The notes beneath the pieces are model-generated. The model was not told the origin of the DNA. It worked only from the letters and a program-made list of their open reading frames with translations, and searched no databases. DNA of 64,000 nucleotides from Henriciella barbarensis (GTDB lineage: Bacteria > Pseudomonadota > Alphaproteobacteria > Caulobacterales > Hyphomonadaceae), in NCBI RefSeq assembly GCF_003576345.1, contig NZ_QWGB01000005.1, forward strand, positions 372,001 to 436,000, in the 5' to 3' direction. The stretch's first letter is position 1, and each line of letters starts with the position of its first letter. The position numbers were made by a program, and so were the translations under genes. Positions 5,832 to 50,455 of the stretch are shown piece by piece.

Positions 5832-8800
5832 TTATTCTGCAGGCTGGGGACGGGCACCGCGGCTCGTTCCGATCAGCTCTTCTTCGTCGATATTGGCTTC
5901 GCCTTCATAGGATTCCCCGATCTTGCGGTATGGGCGCCCGCCCCAGGTCCAGCGGAAAATCCGGCCCACTTCGCAACCAACCGCATAGAATGCAGGGACG
6001 AGCAGAAGCGAGACGAAAAGCGCGAACGCGACAGCCGATCCAAGCGAGACGACCATCGGTTTCAGGAACTGCGCCTGGACCGATTTCTGGGCGATCATCG
6101 GCAGGATACCGACGAAAGTGGTCACCGAGGTGAGAAGCACAGGACGGAAGCGCGAGACGCCAGCATCAACGATGGCCTGCAAGGCGCCTGCCCCTTCTTC
6201 TCGTCGCCGATTGATGTAGTCGACGAGTACGAGGTTATCATTGATGACCACGCCTGCTGCTGCCCCGATGCCGAACATGGAGAAAAGTGCCATCGGCGTG
6301 TTGAACCCCCAGTGCCCGAAGACGGCGCCGGCATAGCCGAAAGGAATGGCCAGCATCAGAAGTAACGGCTGGGAGTAGGACTGGAAGGCGATCGCCAGCA
6401 GGATGTACATCGACACAAAGGCGATGATGTAGAGCCTTGTAATATCCTGAACGAACTCCTGCTCGCTTTCGATATCGCCGACGGCGCCCCGTGTGACCGT
6501 CGGATACTTCTTCGCAAAGTCCGGCCAGAAATTCTGCTCCATATCGGCAAAGATCGTCGCCCGAGTGCTGTCGCCAACCAGGTCAGCGAAAACAGTCACT
6601 GAGCGCATGCGTTCACGGCGCTGGATGCGGTCGATACCTGGCGCGAAGGAAATCTCTGCAACCTGCTCCAGCGGGATCTCACGCCCGTCGCTAGTCCGGA
6701 TACGAAGATCGCGGAGGCTGTCGACAGATTCGCGGGTTTCCTTCGGATAGCGGACCATGACGCGAACATCGTCCCCGTCACGTGGAAGGCGCTGGGCTTC
6801 GATACCATAATAAGCCGCGCGAACCTGCGACGTCACATCACCCAGAGTGATCCCAAGTGAGGTCGCCCCAGGCTTCAGGTCGATCCTGATCTCCTGCGCA
6901 GCTGATGACAGGTTATCGCCAATATCAAAGGCCTGCTCATAGGTGGCGATTTGCGCTTTCACATCGTCAGCCGCCTGCCTCAGGACGTCGAGATCATCAT
7001 TGTTCAGCGCATAGCGGATGGAATTGTCCGCATTGTTGATCGTGAACTGGAAGTTCACTTCTTCAGCATCGGGCACTTCGCCGAAATTGGCGCGGATCTC
7101 GTCTGCGATCTCCTTTGTGGAGACGCCTTCCGGGCGGTCCTGTGGCGGGATCAGGCCGATCCATGACTGCACATTACCTTCAGTCGCCACGATAGAGATG
7201 TCGCGGATCATGTGATCGTCGCCAAGCTCGGGATAGCGCTCATCGAAAGTCAGGCGTGATTGCTCCACCGCCAGGCGCAACTGGTCACGGACCTGAAGCG
7301 AACGCGACTGCGGAGAGCCATCCGGCAAGTCGATACGCACCTGCACCAGGTCGTCTTCAATCTGCGGCATGAAGCGAAATGGCACGATGTTCGACTGGAC
7401 CAGCATGATCGCGATGACGAAAAGCGACGTAAAGATCGCAACAGTTACATACCGGAACTTCACGGCATATTCGAGCAGCGGCTTGTACACCCTGTTCGCG
7501 AAGGTGATCAGGCTGTCCGCGATGCTTTGCTGGACCGACATCAGACGCCCTACGGGGCCGCCGAACTTTTGCGGCTTCATATGGCTGAGGTGCGAGGGCA
7601 GAATGAACATCGACTCGATCAGCGAGAAAGCCAGCGCAGCCACGACAACATAGGTAATCTGGGCGGTGAACTGGCGTTCCGGGCCGGGGATGAAAGCCCA
7701 CGGCGCAAACATGATCATTGTCGTGAGAACCCCGAAAATAACCGGCTTCATAACAAGCTGCGTACCGACAGTTGCAGCCCCAAGCCCCTCTCGCCGACCA
7801 CTCTCGACCTCCTTGTGGATGTTCTCCCCCACAACGATGGCGTCGTCGACGACCACACCGATCACGAGGAGGACCGCAAAGAGCGAGAGGAAGTTAAGCG
7901 ATACGCCGAAGAGTGGCAGGATCATGATACCGCCAGCGAACGCCGTTCCGATACCAATCGTGACCCAGAACGCCACGATCGGGCGCAGGAACAGGATGAG
8001 GATGATAAGGACCAGCGCCATACCCTGAAGGGCCGCAGAGCTGATCGTGTCCATACGGCCTCTATAGACCTCGGACATATCGAACAGGAGATCGAGACGA
8101 AGTCCTTCAGGGAGGCCATCCTGACCGCGACCACTATTGGCGCGCTCGATAAAATCCTTGATGTTGTCGGAGTAGAGGACGATGTCCATTTTCTCTGGCT
8201 GGTTCACCATAATGAACGCAGTCGGTTCGCCATTATAGGTCGCGTCGAGTTCACCATCGACAAATCCATCGACCACATTTGCGACGTCGCGGATGCGGAT
8301 CGTGCCGAACTCCGCGCTCTGGCGAATGACGATATTCTCGAAATCCTCACGCGTGTCAGCAAGCTGGCGTGCCTGGATCGCAACCGTGCCAGTGTCCGTG
8401 CGCACAGTGCCGCCAGAGGAGTTGATGGACGAGCCACGAACTGCGTTCGCGACCTCTGAGAAAGTCATATTGTAGCGGCGAAGTGCGGCTTCAGAGACTT
8501 CGATGGACACTTCTTCGCCCAGCGTGCCTTGAACCTGCGCGAGCTCACCACCTTCGAGCAGCGCGATCCTGTCGCGCATCTCATCTGCATAATAGTCGAG
8601 CGTGCCGGGATCGACATTGCCGTGCAGCGCAAGACCCATGAACTGATTGTTCGCACTCCAGCGACTGACCTGCGGCGGGAAAGACGATTGCGGCAGGTTC
8701 GAAATCGTATCGACGCGGCGCTTCACTTCATCGACGAACTCATCGACATCGACGTCTAGCTCGGTCTGGAGGTTCACATAACCGACGCCTTCCCGGGCAA

Positions 8801-9050
8801 CACCCGTCAGGCGTTTGAGGCCGTCAATGTCAGCGACAACCTCTTCGAGGCGGACCACGATCTGGTCTTCGACGTCCTGAGGGGAGGCGCCAGGCCAGGC
8901 GATGGATACGCTCGCGCCGTTCCAGTCACCGGCCGGGAAGGCTTCCTTTTCGAGGCTGAGGAAGCCAAACGTCCCGCCGATAAAGGCGATGACCATGAGG
9001 AGGTTGGCAGCAATGCCATTTCTGGCCCACCAGGCGACGAGTCCACTCAT
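5832..9050 (-). CDS. RND efflux pump permease (AcrB/HAE1 superfamily)
   Basis: Inner-membrane proton-drug antiporter of 1072 residues, the transport subunit of a tripartite efflux complex. It has the N-terminal membrane helix (WWARNGIAANLLMVIAFIGG), the first porter domain, the GVVVDDAIVVGENI motif of TM4 carrying the paired aspartates for proton relay, and the second half with GAAAGVVINDNLVLVDYI. The short N-terminal tail and HKEVESG loop match divergent Gram-negative pumps better than E. coli AcrB. Its ATG overlaps the adaptor stop by 4 bp, indicating translational coupling. Substrate cannot be told from sequence: drugs, solvents or lipids are all possible. Confidence 0.95.
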   Translation of the reverse strand: MSGLVAWWARNGIAANLLMVIAFIGGTFGFLSLEKEAFPAGDWNGASVSIAWPGASPQDVEDQIVVRLEEVVADIDGLKRLTGVAREGVGYVNLQTELDVDVDEFVDEVKRRVDTISNLPQSSFPPQVSRWSANNQFMGLALHGNVDPGTLDYYADEMRDRIALLEGGELAQVQGTLGEEVSIEVSEAALRRYNMTFSEVANAVRGSSINSSGGTVRTDTGTVAIQARQLADTREDFENIVIRQSAEFGTIRIRDVANVVDGFVDGELDATYNGEPTAFIMVNQPEKMDIVLYSDNIKDFIERANSGRGQDGLPEGLRLDLLFDMSEVYRGRMDTISSAALQGMALVLIILILFLRPIVAFWVTIGIGTAFAGGIMILPLFGVSLNFLSLFAVLLVIGVVVDDAIVVGENIHKEVESGRREGLGAATVGTQLVMKPVIFGVLTTMIMFAPWAFIPGPERQFTAQITYVVVAALAFSLIESMFILPSHLSHMKPQKFGGPVGRLMSVQQSIADSLITFANRVYKPLLEYAVKFRYVTVAIFTSLFVIAIMLVQSNIVPFRFMPQIEDDLVQVRIDLPDGSPQSRSLQVRDQLRLAVEQSRLTFDERYPELGDDHMIRDISIVATEGNVQSWIGLIPPQDRPEGVSTKEIADEIRANFGEVPDAEEVNFQFTINNADNSIRYALNNDDLDVLRQAADDVKAQIATYEQAFDIGDNLSSAAQEIRIDLKPGATSLGITLGDVTSQVRAAYYGIEAQRLPRDGDDVRVMVRYPKETRESVDSLRDLRIRTSDGREIPLEQVAEISFAPGIDRIQRRERMRSVTVFADLVGDSTRATIFADMEQNFWPDFAKKYPTVTRGAVGDIESEQEFVQDITRLYIIAFVSMYILLAIAFQSYSQPLLLMLAIPFGYAGAVFGHWGFNTPMALFSMFGIGAAAGVVINDNLVLVDYINRRREEGAGALQAIVDAGVSRFRPVLLTSVTTFVGILPMIAQKSVQAQFLKPMVVSLGSAVAFALFVSLLLVPAFYAVGCEVGRIFRWTWGGRPYRKIGESYEGEANIDEEELIGTSRGARPQPAE

Positions 9051-10318
9051 TGGATTGCTCCTTCGGTTTCACCAGCAACCTGCGCCGCAGCCTCTTCTTC
9101 GGGGCCGTCAGAATTGGTTTTGCGAGGTGTACGGGGGACGAGTGAGCCGTCAGGCATGCGCTCGACGACCTGGATGCTCATACCATCGAAAGCAGCCTGG
9201 ATCGGAGAGACCACTGCCAGTTCACCATCCTCAACACCCGTGGAGACAAATGCTCCATCATCGGTGCTGTAAACGACGTTCACGGTGCGAATTTCGAGTC
9301 TGCCTTCTGGCCCATCGCCAATGAACACCTGATCGACACCCCGCAGGGCGGAGCGAGGGATGCGCACGACATTCTCGATGCGCCGGCCATCAATCTCAGC
9401 ATTGACGAAGAGGCCCGGCGCCATCGGCACACCATCGTCAGAACCGGTGCCGTATGGATCATCCAGCTCAGCGATAACATTGATAAGCCGGGTCTGCGGG
9501 TTGAGCGCAGCCGCCGTCCGCCTGACGCGGCCGACCCATTCACGCGGCTCACCAGCTACATTCGTCGAAAAGACAACTTGCGGCCCTGGCTTGTCCGCCG
9601 TCTCAGCGAACGCCAGCGGAAGGCCTGTGCGGCCCAGTTCTTCATCAGACAGCGGCAGGGAAACTTCGACCACATCGGTAGCGAAGATCGTGCCCAGAGC
9701 CTGACCGGGGCTTACGAATTGACCGAGATCGGCACTGCGTTCACGGACACGGCCCGAGAAGGGCGCAGTTACAGCGGTCCGGTTCAGTGCAAGCTGGGCA
9801 TCGGCTAGCAGGGCTTTGGCCGAGTCGAGGTTTGCCTGTGCTTCAGCTAGCTGAGGTTCGCGGCGGGCGAGCGGGCTCGCATCCTCGATGCCGAGGTCTG
9901 CAAGATCCTGCTCAGCGAGGTCTGCCTCTGCTTGCTCGCGCGCGAGAGCTTGCTGCGCCGAGGCAACGCCGGACCGGGCCCGCGTCACCGCCAGTTCGTA
10001 ATCCGCTGCCTCCAGGCGCACCAGCACCTGCCCCTGGCGGATGAAACCACCATCAAGAAAATCGGGGGACACGTAGGAAATCCGCCCGGCGATCTGGGGC
10101 GCAACGACGATCTGGCGCTTGGGGCGTACTTCGCCCTGTGCGCGGACCTTGAGGTCGAGGTCTGTCTCTTCGGCGGCTTCTGCAAAGACAGACAGACCAC
10201 GGGGCTGTTCTTCGGCGCGCTCGACAGGCGGCGCGAAGATTTGTGTGAGCGCAAATCCGGTCCCGACGATGACGACGAGGACAATAACTGGAAGCAGAAT
10301 TGTGATGATACGTTTCAT
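9047..10318 (-). CDS. RND efflux periplasmic adaptor (membrane fusion protein)
   Basis: A 423-residue MFP/HlyD-family adaptor bridging the inner-membrane pump and the outer-membrane channel. It has one N-terminal membrane anchor (IITILLPVIVLVVIVGTGFAL), no lipobox, and the biotinyl-lipoyl half-motif VAPQIAGRISYVS. A long alpha-hairpin rich in Ala/Gln/Glu follows (residues about 120-185), then the returning lipoyl strand TAVTAPFSGRVRERSADLGQFVSPG and beta-barrel/membrane-proximal domains. The order in the operon is outer-membrane protein, adaptor, pump. The gap to the upstream stop is 26 bp. Confidence 0.94.
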   Translation of the reverse strand: MKRIITILLPVIVLVVIVGTGFALTQIFAPPVERAEEQPRGLSVFAEAAEETDLDLKVRAQGEVRPKRQIVVAPQIAGRISYVSPDFLDGGFIRQGQVLVRLEAADYELAVTRARSGVASAQQALAREQAEADLAEQDLADLGIEDASPLARREPQLAEAQANLDSAKALLADAQLALNRTAVTAPFSGRVRERSADLGQFVSPGQALGTIFATDVVEVSLPLSDEELGRTGLPLAFAETADKPGPQVVFSTNVAGEPREWVGRVRRTAAALNPQTRLINVIAELDDPYGTGSDDGVPMAPGLFVNAEIDGRRIENVVRIPRSALRGVDQVFIGDGPEGRLEIRTVNVVYSTDDGAFVSTGVEDGELAVVSPIQAAFDGMSIQVVERMPDGSLVPRTPRKTNSDGPEEEAAAQVAGETEGAIQ

Positions 10319-10344: not shown

Positions 10345-11769
10345 TTATATACCAGAATCCGGGGCCATCGCCCCCTCAGTGACCGCACCACCTATGGCGA
10401 GATGAAAGGAAATGCGGTTGGAAACGCGGGATGACCGGGCTGCGATCAGGTTACTCTCTGCGTTCAGTTTACGTGTCTGCGCATCGATCAGATTGAAAAT
10501 CGAAACGAGGCCATTGGAATACTGGCGAGTCGCCAGGTCTTCGGCCTCAATGGCCTCCTCCAGTGCGCGGCGCTGCGCATCAACCTGAGCGGCGAGAAAA
10601 TCATCGGCGGCCAGCGCATCTTCAACTTCGCGCCAGGCGACAAGCACGTCGCCCGCATAATTGGCCAAAGCGCTTTCAGCGAAGGCGATTGCCGCGTCGC
10701 GGTCTGCACGTAGCGCCCCGCCATTGAACACGGGCTGCGAGAGGCTCGCGATCGCATTTGCGGCGATACGGACCGGGTCGAACAGGTCCGCCAGATCGGT
10801 CTGGTTCGCACCCAGCGACCCGCTGAGATTGAGCGTCGGAAGCAGGGCAAGGCGGGCTTGCTCTGCGCGAAGTCCCGCCGCTGTCAGGCGCGCTTCAGAT
10901 GCCGCAATGTCAGGGCGCCGCGCCAGAAGAAGCATCGGCGTACCAGCAGCCTCGATCGGCGCGAGCTCCGGGAGGAGGCCGGGCGCCTCGATTTCGTCAG
11001 CAGGGTAGCGGCCAAGCAGGATCTCAAGCCGGCGCGTGGCATTGCCCAGTGCCTGCTGGCGCGCTGCGATCGCGGCTTCAGCAGTTGCGCGCGCACTTCG
11101 CGCAAGGCGAACATCAAGTGCCGAGGAAAGGCCCCGCGAAAAGCGACGCTCCGTCAAAGTCACGATCCGGTCGCGAGCATCAAAGGTTGCGATGGCCAAG
11201 CGCTCCTGCGCAAGCGCTTCATTGAGATCGGTCCAGGCAATTGCGGTTTGAGCGGCCAGCGTAAGGCGAAGCGATGCAAGATCGGCTTCGCTCGCAACAA
11301 GGTCGGCTTCAGCCGCATCAACGGCCGCTTGCACCCGCCCCCATAGATCGGCGGTCCAGCTCGCATCGACGCCAAGGCCATAAGTCGGGTCCGTGAAGCG
11401 CTCGTCAAAAGCTGCGCTGTAAGTGGAAGTGACCCCAGCTGAACCAGATACCGAAACATTTGGAAGCGATCGGCCGTAAACTGATCGCGCCTGCGCCCGG
11501 CTTGCCCGAACGATGGCGAGCTGTGACTGAAGGTCGGGATTGGCGGCCAGTGCTTCGGAAACAAGAGCCCCCATGACGGGATCGCCAAACTGCGAGATCC
11601 AGTCACCCGTAGGAAGTTCCCCGGTAACACCGCTTTTCGCCCAGGTTTTCGGAGCATCTGGAGCCGCAGGAAAGATCGCAACCGACTCTCCAGCCAGACT
11701 TTGCGTATCCGGCAAAGTGCTGCAACCAGCTAGCACGGCGACAGCGATAATAAGGCCTTCGAACTTCAT
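10345..11769 (-). CDS. RND outer-membrane lipoprotein channel (NodT/OprM family)
   Basis: First gene of the efflux operon, 474 residues, a trimeric TolC-like exit duct. The lipoprotein signal has lipobox VLAGC (Cys about residue 16). The GDWISQFGDPVMGALVSEALAANPDL segment and the two long helical repeats (QARSVYGRSLPNVSVSGSAG and RAEQARLALLPTLNLSGSLG) are characteristic of the family. No TetR, MarR or two-component gene adjoins the operon. Regulation may run through the AT-rich element at 11825-11846 directly upstream, which recurs at the GIN-domain gene. Confidence 0.95.
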   Translation of the reverse strand: MKFEGLIIAVAVLAGCSTLPDTQSLAGESVAIFPAAPDAPKTWAKSGVTGELPTGDWISQFGDPVMGALVSEALAANPDLQSQLAIVRASRAQARSVYGRSLPNVSVSGSAGVTSTYSAAFDERFTDPTYGLGVDASWTADLWGRVQAAVDAAEADLVASEADLASLRLTLAAQTAIAWTDLNEALAQERLAIATFDARDRIVTLTERRFSRGLSSALDVRLARSARATAEAAIAARQQALGNATRRLEILLGRYPADEIEAPGLLPELAPIEAAGTPMLLLARRPDIAASEARLTAAGLRAEQARLALLPTLNLSGSLGANQTDLADLFDPVRIAANAIASLSQPVFNGGALRADRDAAIAFAESALANYAGDVLVAWREVEDALAADDFLAAQVDAQRRALEEAIEAEDLATRQYSNGLVSIFNLIDAQTRKLNAESNLIAARSSRVSNRISFHLAIGGAVTEGAMAPDSGI

Positions 11770-11824
11770 TCCACCCTCTCTTGATGTGATCGCAGCTCTA
11801 AGCAGCGATTACTCGACTGTCAAC

Positions 11825-11846
11825 AAATAATTATCGAAAATCAATA
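11825..11846. promoter_or_regulatory. Candidate operator upstream of the RND operon
   Basis: Contains the 16-mer TTATCGAAAATCAATA (11831-11846), present exactly but reversed at 39920-39935 between two envelope-protein genes. The half-sites TATCGA and TCAATA form an imperfect 6-bp inverted repeat spaced by three bases. The preceding AAATAATTATCG (11825-11836) recurs, reversed, at 50444-50455. It sits 56 bp upstream of the outer-membrane lipoprotein start and about 100 bp upstream of phoR. The binding protein is unknown. Confidence 0.5.
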
Positions 11847-11949: not shown

Positions 11950-13323
11950 ATGGCAAGCGCTCGCAAGCACCCTCAACAGTCGGCTTTACGCCGCGCGGAG
12001 AGAATCCGCGACTTTGTCGTTCTCGGCACCGCCGCCAGCGGCCTGCTTGCTTTCATGATGATCTCTGGCGCCCTCGGCATATTCGAAGGCGTAACAGCAA
12101 TCATCGTCCTGTCGCTCGGCGCCCTGGCGTACTTTGTCGGCTCCGCACCACCCGCCATCGACTTTGCTCCCGTGGACGACGCGCAGGCGAACGACAAGGC
12201 GATGAAATCCTCTGTGCGCTCACTTATCCATGCCTTGCCATTTCCCGCTTGCTACATTTCCGGCGAAGGGCGCATCGAATCGGCCAACAAGAAGATATCG
12301 GACCTCTTCCGTATCAAACATATCGAAGGGGCGCTGAAGTCTGTCATCATTCGCCAGCCCGATGTGCTTGCTGCCACTGACAGGGTTTCACGCAGCAGTG
12401 CCGGCGAGCGGGTCGAGTTCATGGCCATTGACGGTGATGAACTCTGGCTAGCCCACCTCACTCCGGGCCCTGAGCCGTCGAGCGTCTTCGTCGTTTTTGA
12501 GGACCGCACTGCGGTGCACCGCGCTGAACGGGCGCGCGCCGACTTTCTGGCCAATGCAAGCCATGAGCTACGCACACCCCTGACCGCCCTCGCCGGCTTC
12601 ATCGAAACGATGCGCGGGCCTGCCCGCGATGACCGGGAGTCATGGGACGGCTTTCTCGAGATCATGCATAAGCAAACGGACCGGATGCGCCACCTCGTCT
12701 CCGATCTGCTCTCGCTGTCCCGGATCGAGTTCAGCGAACATCGTGCACCCGATACCGTTATCGACCTCAGCGATGTGCTCAGCCAGACCGTCCTGGCGCT
12801 GCAACCCCTTGCGGCAGAGCGGGCTATCGAGCTGTCCCTTGAGGGCCTCGGACGCGAAATCCAGGTCACGGCGAAGTGGGATGAACTTGCGCAGGTCGTG
12901 CAGAACCTGATCAGCAACGCCTTGAAATATTCGCCGAAAGGCGGGCGGGTCACTGTGCATATCGGAACTGCACGAAGCATGGCCGACGCCGCAATGCTCG
13001 CAACCGGGCCCACTGAGGACACAACGCGCGCAGTTCTTCTGCAGCCACGCGCGTCGTCCGAAGCCGCAGCAGCCTGGATCAGCGTCAGCGACAAGGGCGT
13101 CGGGATCGCACGTCAACATCTCTCCCGGCTGGGTGAACGTTTCTACCGCGCGGATGAAAGCCGCGGCGGCGACATTGAAGGCACTGGCCTGGGCCTCGCC
13201 ATCGTGAAGCACATCATGGCCCGCCATAGAGGCGGGCTCGCTGTCGCGAGCGAGGAGGACAAAGGCACGTGCTTCGGTGTCTGGCTGCCTTGTCTTGAGG
13301 GCAGCGCGCCATCCAATCGCTAG
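11950..13323 (+). CDS. phoR: Phosphate-regulon sensor histidine kinase PhoR
   Basis: Membrane histidine kinase of 457 residues that phosphorylates PhoB when phosphate is scarce. Two N-terminal membrane helices (residues about 22-65) are followed by a PAS-like region and the HisKA box NASHELRTPLTALAGF with the phospho-acceptor His at about residue 205. The ATP-binding domain shows N box VQNLISNALKYSP, G1 DKGVGI and G2 GTGLGLAIVKHI. The ATG at 11950 has GGA six bases upstream; a TTG at 11935 would add five residues. It is followed after 3 bp by an rluA-like gene and then the pst genes. No Pho box is visible upstream of phoR itself. Confidence 0.93.
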   Translation: MASARKHPQQSALRRAERIRDFVVLGTAASGLLAFMMISGALGIFEGVTAIIVLSLGALAYFVGSAPPAIDFAPVDDAQANDKAMKSSVRSLIHALPFPACYISGEGRIESANKKISDLFRIKHIEGALKSVIIRQPDVLAATDRVSRSSAGERVEFMAIDGDELWLAHLTPGPEPSSVFVVFEDRTAVHRAERARADFLANASHELRTPLTALAGFIETMRGPARDDRESWDGFLEIMHKQTDRMRHLVSDLLSLSRIEFSEHRAPDTVIDLSDVLSQTVLALQPLAAERAIELSLEGLGREIQVTAKWDELAQVVQNLISNALKYSPKGGRVTVHIGTARSMADAAMLATGPTEDTTRAVLLQPRASSEAAAAWISVSDKGVGIARQHLSRLGERFYRADESRGGDIEGTGLGLAIVKHIMARHRGGLAVASEEDKGTCFGVWLPCLEGSAPSNR

Positions 13324-39499: not shown

Positions 39500-39883
39500 C
39501 TAGTTGCTGATATCGTTACGGATCCGTACGGCAGCGCCCTGCGGAATACCAAGCTCTTCAAACGACCAGCTCAACTCAACACCTTCTGGTATGTAAGCTT
39601 CGCAATAGTCCTGGCGTTCACGATAGAAGCCGACGGAAAAACGGTTCTCGCCCGTCTTGTCGATGTCTGCACCGATGAAATCCTTGGTCGTGCAGCCATT
39701 CGACGTCACGCGCGCAGTAACAATCCCGTTAGTCACGTCAGCGCCCATCAGCTCGCCATAGGAGCGGTCGCTGCTCCAGTCAGCGCGGACATGCTCATCC
39801 GCGTCAACGATAACGCAGCCACCCAGAAAGAGGGCTGCAGTGGCGGCGCCGAGCGACAGGCGAATGGAGGTGTTGAGCTTCAT
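39500..39883 (-). CDS. Small lipoprotein, hypothetical
   Basis: A 127-residue lipoprotein with lipobox FLGGCVIV (Cys about residue 23). The mature part is beta-rich: GIVTARVTSNGC, then NRFSVGFYRERQDYCEAYIPEGVELSWSFEEL and a final GAAVRIRNDIS. Two further cysteines probably form a disulfide. No domain is recognised. It is divergent from the GIN-domain gene, and the 108-bp gap contains the operator-like element at 39920. Confidence 0.72.
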   Translation of the reverse strand: MKLNTSIRLSLGAATAALFLGGCVIVDADEHVRADWSSDRSYGELMGADVTNGIVTARVTSNGCTTKDFIGADIDKTGENRFSVGFYRERQDYCEAYIPEGVELSWSFEELGIPQGAAVRIRNDISN

Positions 39884-39910
39884 ATCGAAAATTCCTTATT
39901 GACTTACAAT

Positions 39911-39935
39911 AATTATTCGTATTGATTTTCGATAA
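39911..39935. promoter_or_regulatory. Candidate operator in a divergent promoter region
   Basis: TATTGATTTTCGATAA at 39920-39935 is the exact reverse complement of 11831-11846 upstream of the RND operon. It forms an imperfect inverted repeat, TATTGA-TTT-TCGATA. The adjoining AATAATTATTCG (around 39909-39918) adds AT-rich half-sites. It could control both the lipoprotein gene and the GIN-domain gene. Confidence 0.5.
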
Positions 39936-39991: not shown

Positions 39992-40687
39992 ATGACACGT
40001 CGCATTGCCCTCACCGCCTTCGCCTTCAGTGCCGCAACGGCCCTGCCTGCCCTCGCCGAAACGCGCACTTATGACGTCGGCAATTTCGAGGGCATCGACG
40101 TGTCTTCAGGCATCGAAGTCCTTTATGAGATCGGCACCACAAAGTCCGTAATCGTAGAGAACAAGGACGGTGATTTCAGCGATATTATCGTCGAGTCGAA
40201 GGGCGGAGACCTCGTCCTGAAGCGGCCACGCAAAATGGGCTGGGGCCGCCGCCGCGCGCCGTATACCGTGACGGTCGGCGCCTCATCGCTCAACTCGATT
40301 GAGGCCTCTTCCGGCTCAAGCGTATCAGGCGATGGCCTCTCCGGCCCCCGTGCCAGCGTCGAAGTATCGTCTGGGGCAGATGTCGAAATCAGCGGCATCG
40401 ACGCGGAAACAGTCATCGCCGAGGCATCCAGCGGCGCGAGCATGGAAATTGCCGGCACGTGCACGACCATCGACGCTGACGCCTCCTCAGGCGCAAACCT
40501 CGATGCAGGCGACCTCATCTGCGAGCGCCTCGTGGCGGATGTCTCCTCCGGCGCATCGATTGACGCTCATGCCAGCCAGAGCGTGCGCGCTGACGCGTCC
40601 AGCGGCGGCAGCGTAAAAGCCTTTGGCGGCGCAGGCGACGTGTCCGTTGAAAAGTCGTCCGGAGGCTCGGTTCGCGTCGTCAGCTAG
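39992..40687 (+). CDS. Exported GIN-domain (DUF2807) protein
   Basis: A 231-residue exported protein (signal MTRRIALTAFAFSAATALP, cleaved after ALA) consisting of a head GIN domain, a right-handed beta-solenoid fold. FEGIDVSSGIEVLYEIG starts the domain. Short Ser/Gly/Ala repeats (SSGADVEIS, ASSGASMEIA, DASSGANLDA, VSSGASIDA, DASSGGSVKA) recur about every 20 residues, as in solenoid rungs. The family is called putative auto-transporter adhesin, but no translocator domain is present. The function is probably a cell-envelope stress or adhesive role. Confidence 0.88.
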   Translation: MTRRIALTAFAFSAATALPALAETRTYDVGNFEGIDVSSGIEVLYEIGTTKSVIVENKDGDFSDIIVESKGGDLVLKRPRKMGWGRRRAPYTVTVGASSLNSIEASSGSSVSGDGLSGPRASVEVSSGADVEISGIDAETVIAEASSGASMEIAGTCTTIDADASSGANLDAGDLICERLVADVSSGASIDAHASQSVRADASSGGSVKAFGGAGDVSVEKSSGGSVRVVS

Positions 40688-48830: not shown

Positions 48831-49463
48831 CTAGAACTTGTAACCCGCTGAAACCATCGCAGCATGGGTGTCGGTGTTGCCGAAGCCATACCACGTATAC
48901 TCACCGCGCAGATTCCAGTCCTCGGTCAGCGCATAGTCCAGGCCACCGCCGAGAGCTGCACCGTCTTCGGAGTCCTCGATCGTGGTGATCGTGGTACCAC
49001 CCGGCGTCTGAATATCAGCATCAAGGTCGACGAATGCGTAACCGGCACGGCCAAAGGCGTCGAGACGCTCTGTGACCGGTACTTCTGCCTTACCATAGAG
49101 GCCGACGAGGTAATTAAGACCGATATCCCCGGAGCCTGCGATCAGATCATTGAAGTCGCCGTCATTATTGTCGTCGAGATCGAACTCGTCCTCGTCGACA
49201 TTATAGTCGAACTCGCCATCGTCGATGCCGGTGGTGATGTCTGATTCAAGGCTGAACCAATCATTGAATTGATAGCCTGCACGGGCCGTAATTGCGTTCG
49301 TGTCGACACCGCTATCGGCACCATCCGGCTGGATGTCGAGATAGCTATAGCCACCTTGCAGATAGAAGCCCTGTTCGTCCGAATAGGATTGCGCCGAAGC
49401 CGAACCGGCAGCGACGATCATTGCACCTGCTGCGGCGGTGCCAATAAGCATGGTCTTCAACAT
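48831..49463 (-). CDS. Outer-membrane beta-barrel protein with an Asp-rich loop
   Basis: A 210-residue OmpA-like/porin-family eight-strand barrel. The signal is MLKTMLIGTAAAGAMIVAAG, with cleavage after ASA. Alternating-residue strands end with the aromatic terminal segment AAMVSAGYKF required for barrel insertion. Loop 2 (residues about 80-105) is very acidic: GEFDYNVDEDEFDLDDNNDG, which may bind Ca2+ or another cation. Strand motifs GYQFNDWFSLE and GLDYALTEDWNLRGEY are typical. It has its own promoter region and strong terminator. Confidence 0.91.
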   Translation of the reverse strand: MLKTMLIGTAAAGAMIVAAGSASAQSYSDEQGFYLQGGYSYLDIQPDGADSGVDTNAITARAGYQFNDWFSLESDITTGIDDGEFDYNVDEDEFDLDDNNDGDFNDLIAGSGDIGLNYLVGLYGKAEVPVTERLDAFGRAGYAFVDLDADIQTPGGTTITTIEDSEDGAALGGGLDYALTEDWNLRGEYTWYGFGNTDTHAAMVSAGYKF

Positions 49464-49628: not shown

Positions 49629-49886
49629 TTAACCCGCATCGTCCGCCTTATTTGGAACATATTCGAGAAGCTCTCCCGGCGTACAGGTCAGCGCGTCGCA
49701 AAGACGGATTAGCGTGTCAAACCTGACGCCTTTTACCTTGCCGGACTTGAGCAAGGAAAGGTTCGCCTCCGTCATGCCAATTTCGGCGGCTACCGCCTTG
49801 GCACGTCGCTTCCTGAGCGCGAGCATGACGTCCAGCCGGACAATGATTTCACCTGGCAGGCCACTGTCTTCAGACGAACTGGTCAT
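49629..49886 (-). CDS. XRE-family regulator (YozG-like)
   Basis: An 85-residue Cro/C1 helix-turn-helix protein. The pattern VMLALRKRRAKAVAAEIGMTEANLSLLKSGK, then VRFDTLIRLCDALTCTPGELLEYVP, is that of the small YozG-like regulators paired with DUF2975 membrane proteins. The start at 49886 overlaps the DUF2975 gene end by 17 bp, indicating an operon. It probably regulates that operon. Confidence 0.9.
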   Translation of the reverse strand: MTSSSEDSGLPGEIIVRLDVMLALRKRRAKAVAAEIGMTEANLSLLKSGKVKGVRFDTLIRLCDALTCTPGELLEYVPNKADDAG

Positions 49887-50388
49887 TGTCGTCCTTGAGC
49901 GCGATCGCATCCTCAAAGACGCTGGCGAGCCCATGCAGGGCGAACCCCATCAGGCCAACGCCAAGCGCGAGATCCGTAAAGCTGAATATGTTGCGGCTCG
50001 TCTCATCATCCATCCAGCCGAGTACGGCCGGTATGATGATGGCACTCGTCACCGCCGCCCAGATCAGGCTGTCGGCGCCCTGACGTAGGGTCTTGAGATT
50101 GCGGGCGGTGAAGACGTCGCCCTTGCCGCATCGCCCGAAAAAGGACGCGAAGTCAGCCAGCGCAAACGCAATGAAGATTGTGGGCCCGGCTTTCAGAAAC
50201 CCAATCGTGAACGCACTCAGAAGCGGCAGGACATCTGCACCGCTCTCAAAATACTCGCCGCCGACTTCCTCGCCTACGAGGTAGGACACGTTCACTGCCA
50301 GTATGCCGACGGCAACCCATGCCAGAATTGAAAGCGTGTCATAGGACACTGCTTTCCCATTATCATTCGACCGATTATCCGAAACCAT
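49870..50388 (-). CDS. DUF2975 membrane protein
   Basis: A 172-residue protein with four predicted helices (about residues 20-40, 55-80, 115-135 and 145-165). The core segment KAGPTIFIAFALADFASFF, then GDVFTARNLKTLRQGADSLIWAAVT, is the DUF2975 signature. The ATG at 50388 has GGAGG six bases upstream; the frame upstream to 50556 overlaps the next gene. Function unknown. The promoter region carries AATTAT/ATAATT elements. Confidence 0.88.
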   Translation of the reverse strand: MVSDNRSNDNGKAVSYDTLSILAWVAVGILAVNVSYLVGEEVGGEYFESGADVLPLLSAFTIGFLKAGPTIFIAFALADFASFFGRCGKGDVFTARNLKTLRQGADSLIWAAVTSAIIIPAVLGWMDDETSRNIFSFTDLALGVGLMGFALHGLASVFEDAIALKDDNDQFV

Positions 50389-50443
50389 ATTCGCCTCCAC
50401 CCCAAAAGAGTTAAAAAGACTATAGCAAATTATTATTGTCTGG

Positions 50444-50455
50444 CGATAATTATTT
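50444..50455. promoter_or_regulatory. AT-rich CGATAATTATTT element
   Basis: Exact reverse complement of AAATAATTATCG at 11825-11836. It lies 56 bp upstream of the DUF2975 start and overlaps the stop-codon end of the next upstream gene. It also forms an AATTAT-N12-ATAATT inverted repeat with 50429-50434. A 12-bp AT-rich match alone can occur by chance. Confidence 0.3.

Follow-up and report, generated by a model that had tools for sequence, protein, structure and literature searches.

What is the role of a 16-bp sequence that occurs, letter for letter, in two separate intergenic regions of one piece of DNA? The sequence, TTATCGAAAATCAATA, lies at positions 11831-11846 of the forward strand, and its exact reverse complement is at 39920-39935. 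Positions are those of the window, by which we mean the whole 64,000-nucleotide stretch analysed (G000:C11:372001-436000), part of a 3.33 Mb genome in 14 contigs. The inverted recurrence, noticed in a first-pass annotation, is thus confirmed; the first site had been placed at 11825..11846, which ends correctly and begins 6 bases early. A third relative, with 3 mismatches, is found on the reverse strand at 39897-39912. Hence, the window holds three matches at up to 3 mismatches. Dinucleotide-preserving shuffles gave a mean of 0.19 and a largest count of 2, and none of 100 reached 3, which agrees with the earlier view that a chance origin is improbable. The core of the 16-mer is a 15-bp palindrome, TATYG-N5-CRATA, with arms TATYG and CRATA around a 5-bp spacer. 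The dyad had been read as TATCGA/TCAATA; it is real, but its register at the first site is TATCG-AAAAT-CAATA.

The palindromes, to which no strand is assigned, lie between genes of the kinds originally described. The first operator, TATCGAAAATCAATA (11832..11846), separates an RND efflux operon from a divergent histidine kinase gene (11950..13323, forward strand). The efflux operon, on the reverse strand, begins with an outer membrane efflux protein (OEP; 10345..11769, PF02321), followed by a membrane fusion protein of the HlyD type (9047..10318, by Pfam) and an AcrB-type RND pump (5832..9050, PF00873). A likely -35 element of the RND promoter, TTGACA by consensus match, is 8 bp from the operator (11819..11824, reverse strand). 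The second 16-mer copy contains operator TATTGATTTTCGATA (39920..39934) and has a tandem partner, TATTGACTTACAATA, 23 bp away (39897..39911). To one side of this pair is a gene for a GIN-domain (DUF2807) protein (39992..40687, forward strand). Divergent from it is a small gene (39500..39883, reverse strand), whose 127-aa product is a putative lipoprotein, judging by eye from its N-terminus, and has no Pfam match. The fourth palindrome in the window, TATTGTCTGGCGATA (50434..50448), has G/C within its core.

The exact 16-mer occurs just twice in the genome. At up to 3 mismatches there are 24 matches, against 6 for the reversed pattern. The motif TATYG-N5-CRATA occurs 20 times, compared with 6 for its reversed control, and the palindrome with an A/T core 12 times, compared with 1. 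Across 105 genomes of the family the A/T-core palindrome totals 772 copies (control, 13) and is present in 102; G009, G093 and G100 have none. It exceeds its control in each of 29 genomes of the genus. At the level of the order, 198 of 249 genomes carry the palindrome, and one family, f2, which we take to be Caulobacteraceae, has only 0-2 sites per genome. The RND and GIN intergenic regions were each aligned for 5 sequences of the genus (L363 and L365 were dropped, having no histidine kinase match; L364 was kept despite a spurious GIN match, E 0.047). The palindrome in the first, and the operator pair in the second, are conserved blocks amid diverged flanks, so the check on relatives bore out the original suggestion. 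A flanking base on which the search did not draw shows constraint as well (T in 65%, 1.04 bits).

Genomes that retain just one or two sites point to a candidate regulator. Of the 9 sites fetched from f2 genomes, 8 are at an operon encoding a putative DUF2975 membrane protein and a small XRE protein (HTH_26); several of these operons are, by eye, near rdgB. The ninth site (L182, on G133:C32 of a Caulobacteraceae-like genome) is away from such an operon; it is ~1.8 kb from an integrase-looking gene, perhaps in a mobile element. The same operon, with a site, is also found in G193, G033, G084 and G096. A tblastn search with the f2 HTH hits the window itself at 49632-49886. The gene there (49629..49886, reverse strand, start codon assumed) encodes a small Cro/CI-type regulator matching HTH_26 (PF13443) at 70.3 bits, above the cut-off of 22; two relatives score 76.0 and 76.1. 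It adjoins a gene for a 172-aa DUF2975 protein with four predicted helices (49870..50388, reverse strand), which passes the PF11188 cut-off of 27 with 34.8 bits (at 49873-50388) and has TATTGTCTGGCGATA 45 bp before it. The genome has two DUF2975 copies, each next to an HTH_26 gene. The main pair is outside the window (G000:C11:196391-196949, HTH_26 at 196391-196612), and the in-window HTH is a paralog of this main copy. Hence, the expectation that the regulator is encoded outside the window holds for the main operon; the paralogous pair, which has an operator too, is within the window (49632-50448).

The main operon is preceded by TATCGTTTAACGGTA, which agrees with the motif at 9 of 10 specified positions. 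Such a match within 1.1 kb has an estimated chance of ~0.1 and so is not rare; its position is constant in the genus. Among the 30 family operons returned (L195-L224), 16 have a 10/10 site upstream and 12 a 9/10 site; L206 and L214 have no upstream site. In alignments of 13 and of 22 HTHs, the recognition helix keeps T, A, N, L, S, L and K without variation. An AlphaFold2 model of the HTH has a Cro/CI fold (mean pLDDT 83.8); its nearest folds are SaPI2 Stl, VanUg and CylR2, and DdrO is also among the best hits. The DUF2975 model has four long helices (mean pLDDT 87.6). A fold search of the PDB gave no match to it at E <=0.001, and a profile search of PDB sequences gave one weak match only, a designed binder.

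Taken from the sequence comparisons, the 16-mer is very probably an operator of a two-gene DUF2975-HTH_26 switch that expanded within the family into a mainly envelope regulon. The HTH_26 protein (about 63-90 aa), made from the same operon as DUF2975, would bind TATYG-N5-CRATA as a dimer, over or beside promoter elements and in some cases at tandem sites spaced by 21-23 bp. It would control its own operon, where the operator is found in several phyla. In the family it would also control the RND pump, the GIN-domain protein and lipoprotein, a PspB-like protein, a 141-aa protein, UrcA and others. The DUF2975 protein may sense a membrane or envelope condition and alter HTH binding, as proposed for CylR1/CylR2; both this coupling and the nature of the inducing signal are suppositions on our part. 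Fis- or NtrC-type control and a sigma-factor promoter, ideas prompted by the shape of the motif, were dropped once the HTH_26 operon emerged.

The placement of sites was examined for 110 of the 113 A/T-core sites in 13 family genomes (3 from G096 were left out). All but one (109/110) lie between called genes, and the many copies within genes that would have told against the original suggestion were not seen. A start faces the site within 400 bp in 102 of the 110, at a median distance of 50 bp and at less than 100 bp in 79; genes were called with a simple hexamer gene finder, so some starts will be wrong, which adds scatter to these distances. The proposal of a regulon operator kept at promoters in relatives is therefore strongly supported. 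Tandem A/T-core pairs less than 80 bp apart have spacings of 21, 22, 22, 22, 23, 23, 32, 32 and 66 bp.

Several targets recur among the 13 genomes. A PspB-like protein, the GIN/DUF2807 protein and the small lipoprotein are each targets in 8, and the RND outer membrane protein, the divergent histidine kinase and the 141-aa protein in 7. Less frequent are a DUF2306-like protein (4 genomes) and, all assigned by eye, YbjQ-like, TonB-receptor-like and RdgB-like proteins and an ABC permease (3 each). UrcA-type proteins are targets in several of the genomes; one (L047:3610-3939) scores 60.1 bits against TIGR04433, above the cut-off of 25. In the window's own genome, sites also precede genes for a GPP34 protein, an S9 peptidase and an S49 peptidase (site core TTAAC) and, farther off, an FAD oxidoreductase and an aminotransferase. 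The link to the envelope, as first proposed, stands in part. Many recurrent targets are envelope genes, but dut, radA, rdgB and argD-like neighbours blur this lean, the first three being non-envelope. The name PspB was rejected for the small envelope target, which falls below both the Pfam (21.2 against 25.6) and the NCBIfam (25.2 against 51.7) cut-offs; we call it PspB-like only. One 141-aa protein (L046:4040-4465) is without a Pfam or NCBIfam match, and the operator is at the -10 region of its gene.

The layout of target promoters bears on the sign of control. Promoter elements were assigned by simple consensus matches, with at most 6 genomes printed per target. The RND operator is exactly 8 bp upstream of TTGAC(A/T) in 6/6 genomes printed (TTGACT in G033), and this spacing from TTGACA (window 11819-11846) is fixed in several genera. 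The HTH operons L250, L252 and L262 have a similar layout. A position upstream of the -35 element suits activation too, and the regulator might activate, not repress, at least at the RND promoter; we regard this as possible and the less likely sign. Conversely, the predicted -10 element overlaps or abuts the operator at the 141-aa gene (4/6 printed) and the PspB-like gene (2/6), which fits a repressor, and other GIN and lipoprotein sites are within the promoter region. Furthermore, VanUG is described as repressing from sites spanning -70 to -20 (PMC4405338). We read the HTH as mostly repressing and, by analogy with what is proposed for CylR1/CylR2, favour relief of this repression through DUF2975.

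An association of motif and operon could also arise if the palindrome were the operator of another regulator, with the DUF2975-HTH_26 operon merely one of its targets. MarR-type repressors, for instance, often have sites that are palindromes of 15-16 bp. As an independent test, loci were picked by similarity of the HTH protein alone, and the exact palindrome was sought in the 1.1 kb upstream. The class set comprised 27 loci outside the family, and the wider set 75 loci with enough upstream DNA among the best 80 of 583 relatives in named genomes. Of the class loci, 17/27 have the palindrome upstream, compared with a shuffle mean of 0.05 (largest 1); of the wider loci, 56/75 have it (shuffle mean 0.40, largest 2). 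It is missing from 10 and 19, respectively. The wider loci that carry it include Bacteroidota, Bacillota, Actinomycetota, Gemmatimonadota and Saccharibacteria. Most sites fall 500-850 nt ahead of the HTH, at the beginning of the DUF2975 gene (19/22 in the class set, 57/59 in the wider set). The same motif sought downstream was found at 2 class and 2 wider loci. Among 13 control palindromes of like composition, the half-site TAYTG, which overlaps the motif (both include TATTG), was found at 8 and 22 loci, and the others never at more than 2. Of 32 selected proteins encoded upstream, that of the window among them, 29 match DUF2975 (PF11188).

The sites and the HTH also occur together. Of the 105 family genomes, 97 gave a match to the HTH, and these have 2-14 sites (median 7). 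The eight genomes without it have 0 (G009), 1 (G027), 2 (G028), 4 (G029), 7 (G089), 0 (G093), 6 (G095) and 0 (G100) sites; all three site-free family genomes are thus among them. Two sites or fewer are found in 5/8 genomes without the HTH and in 1/97 with it, the latter being G103, which has just 2 (Fisher 3.4e-6; uncorrected for kinship and so overstated, since related genomes are not independent). In the class outside the family, 33/61 genomes with the HTH have an A/T-core site, compared with 66/322 without (Fisher 2.6e-7, likewise uncorrected); here the scoring took in only the 15 highest-ranking initial candidates of each genome, and some HTHs may have been missed.

Two observations would suit another regulator. 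One is a G077 gene, of MarR type by eye, that has a site 180 bp upstream of it. The other is that three genomes lacking the HTH retain sites; these are drafts, in 520 (G029), 220 (G089) and 50 (G095) contigs, with completeness of 97, 97 and 78%. However, the G077 MarR has no close relative in the window's genome (best identity 27%) and, among the 34 unmatched genomes listed, at least 20, many of them site-rich, contain no match. The palindrome at loci chosen by HTH_26 similarity across several phyla would hardly be expected from a shared unrelated regulator. We therefore consider control by a different regulator improbable, and the MarR-type candidate was rejected, its gene not being conserved in the genus of the window. 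In G077 itself, the MarR-type gene (L130:2338-2820) is possibly a target of the switch.

Another possibility is that the 16-mer sites answer chiefly to the paralog inside the window (49629-49886) and not to the main copy. It is within 28 kb of sites, has a 10/10 operator of its own and shares the invariant recognition-helix residues. However, 8-11 sites are present in genomes that have a single HTH match (e.g. G002, G003, G006 and G007; best E close to 1e-41), and the main copy therefore probably suffices as their regulator. Paralog operators, unlike the 16-mer, often have a G/C core: this is so in the window, G001 (C2:149190-149204), G004 (C2:1872869-1872883), G008 and G072, though not in G067. 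A leading part for the paralog is thus about as improbable as an unrelated regulator, and we retain the main copy. Such G/C cores may insulate the two copies from each other. Finally, a chance or mobile repeat, which the occurrence of the exact 16-mer only twice might suggest, is refuted by the counts against controls and contradicted by the intergenic placement, by the island-like conservation in diverged intergenic regions and by sequence outside the palindrome that differs from site to site.

The proposed switch has partial parallels. CylR1/CylR2 of Enterococcus faecalis likewise combines a membrane protein with a small HTH repressor encoded alongside it, and phosphorelay-free signalling has been proposed for the pair (PMC3709268). 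The likeness is one of layout and of the HTH, the model of the window HTH having CylR2 structures among its closest folds; CylR1 is described with three predicted transmembrane helices rather than the four of DUF2975 (PMC3709268). CylR1/CylR2 is described there as serving one operon and a peptide signal (PMC3709268), whereas the DUF2975-HTH_26 pair would govern many operons through an operator found across phyla. VanUG of the vanG operon (structure 3tyr) is the best profile match of the window HTH among PDB sequences (6.1e-8). This XRE family protein represses its own and another promoter and binds a pair of adjacent, imperfect inverted repeats, given as 14 bp; it works beside a two-component system, not DUF2975 (PMC4405338). 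As for the Psp system, DUF2807 (GIN) is placed in Toastrack, and PspB and PspC are Psp components (PMC11237479). The likeness here is that GIN and PspB-like proteins have an operator in common; the difference is that control would be by an unlinked DUF2975-HTH_26 pair, and that the PspB-like protein is under curated cut-offs.

YoaS is presumably the Bacillus DUF2975 protein, and B. subtilis has a DUF2975 match, as does Caulobacter vibrioides. A table of Makarova et al. (2009) contains 32 pairs of a 'YoaS-like' membrane protein ('likely permease') with Xre; in the available portion they are set aside as not toxin-antitoxin, with no operator, regulon or function given (PMC2701414). The literature searched contained nothing by title or abstract on the function of DUF2975, HTH_26 (PF13443), YozG or YoaS, DUF2975 being named in passing. 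It held no operator or regulon for DUF2975 and nothing apparently relevant on envelope stress regulons of Hyphomonas. Small XRE regulators beside membrane proteins were already known; as far as the literature searched extends, what is new is the operator, the range of phyla in which it occurs and the family regulon.

The DUF2975 domain is unstudied and was found here beside HTH_26 in members of the Proteobacteria, Bacteroidota, Bacillota and other groups. With an operator readable from sequence, the regulon becomes predictable in many genomes, and a pair of uncharacterised genes becomes a testable signalling module. Tentatively, and with somewhat less than even confidence, we suggest a widespread phosphorelay-free module from membrane to DNA that uses one operator code across phyla. 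In the family, a switch that mainly regulated itself might have developed into the master of an envelope response (GIN/Toastrack, PspB-like protein, RND pump), with the in-window paralog partly insulated by drifted operator cores. If so, an RND pump would share its controller with GIN/Toastrack and PspB-like proteins in the family. Immediately 3' of the in-window DUF2975-HTH_26 pair, and sharing its strand, is a gene for an OmpA-like beta-barrel (48831-49463).
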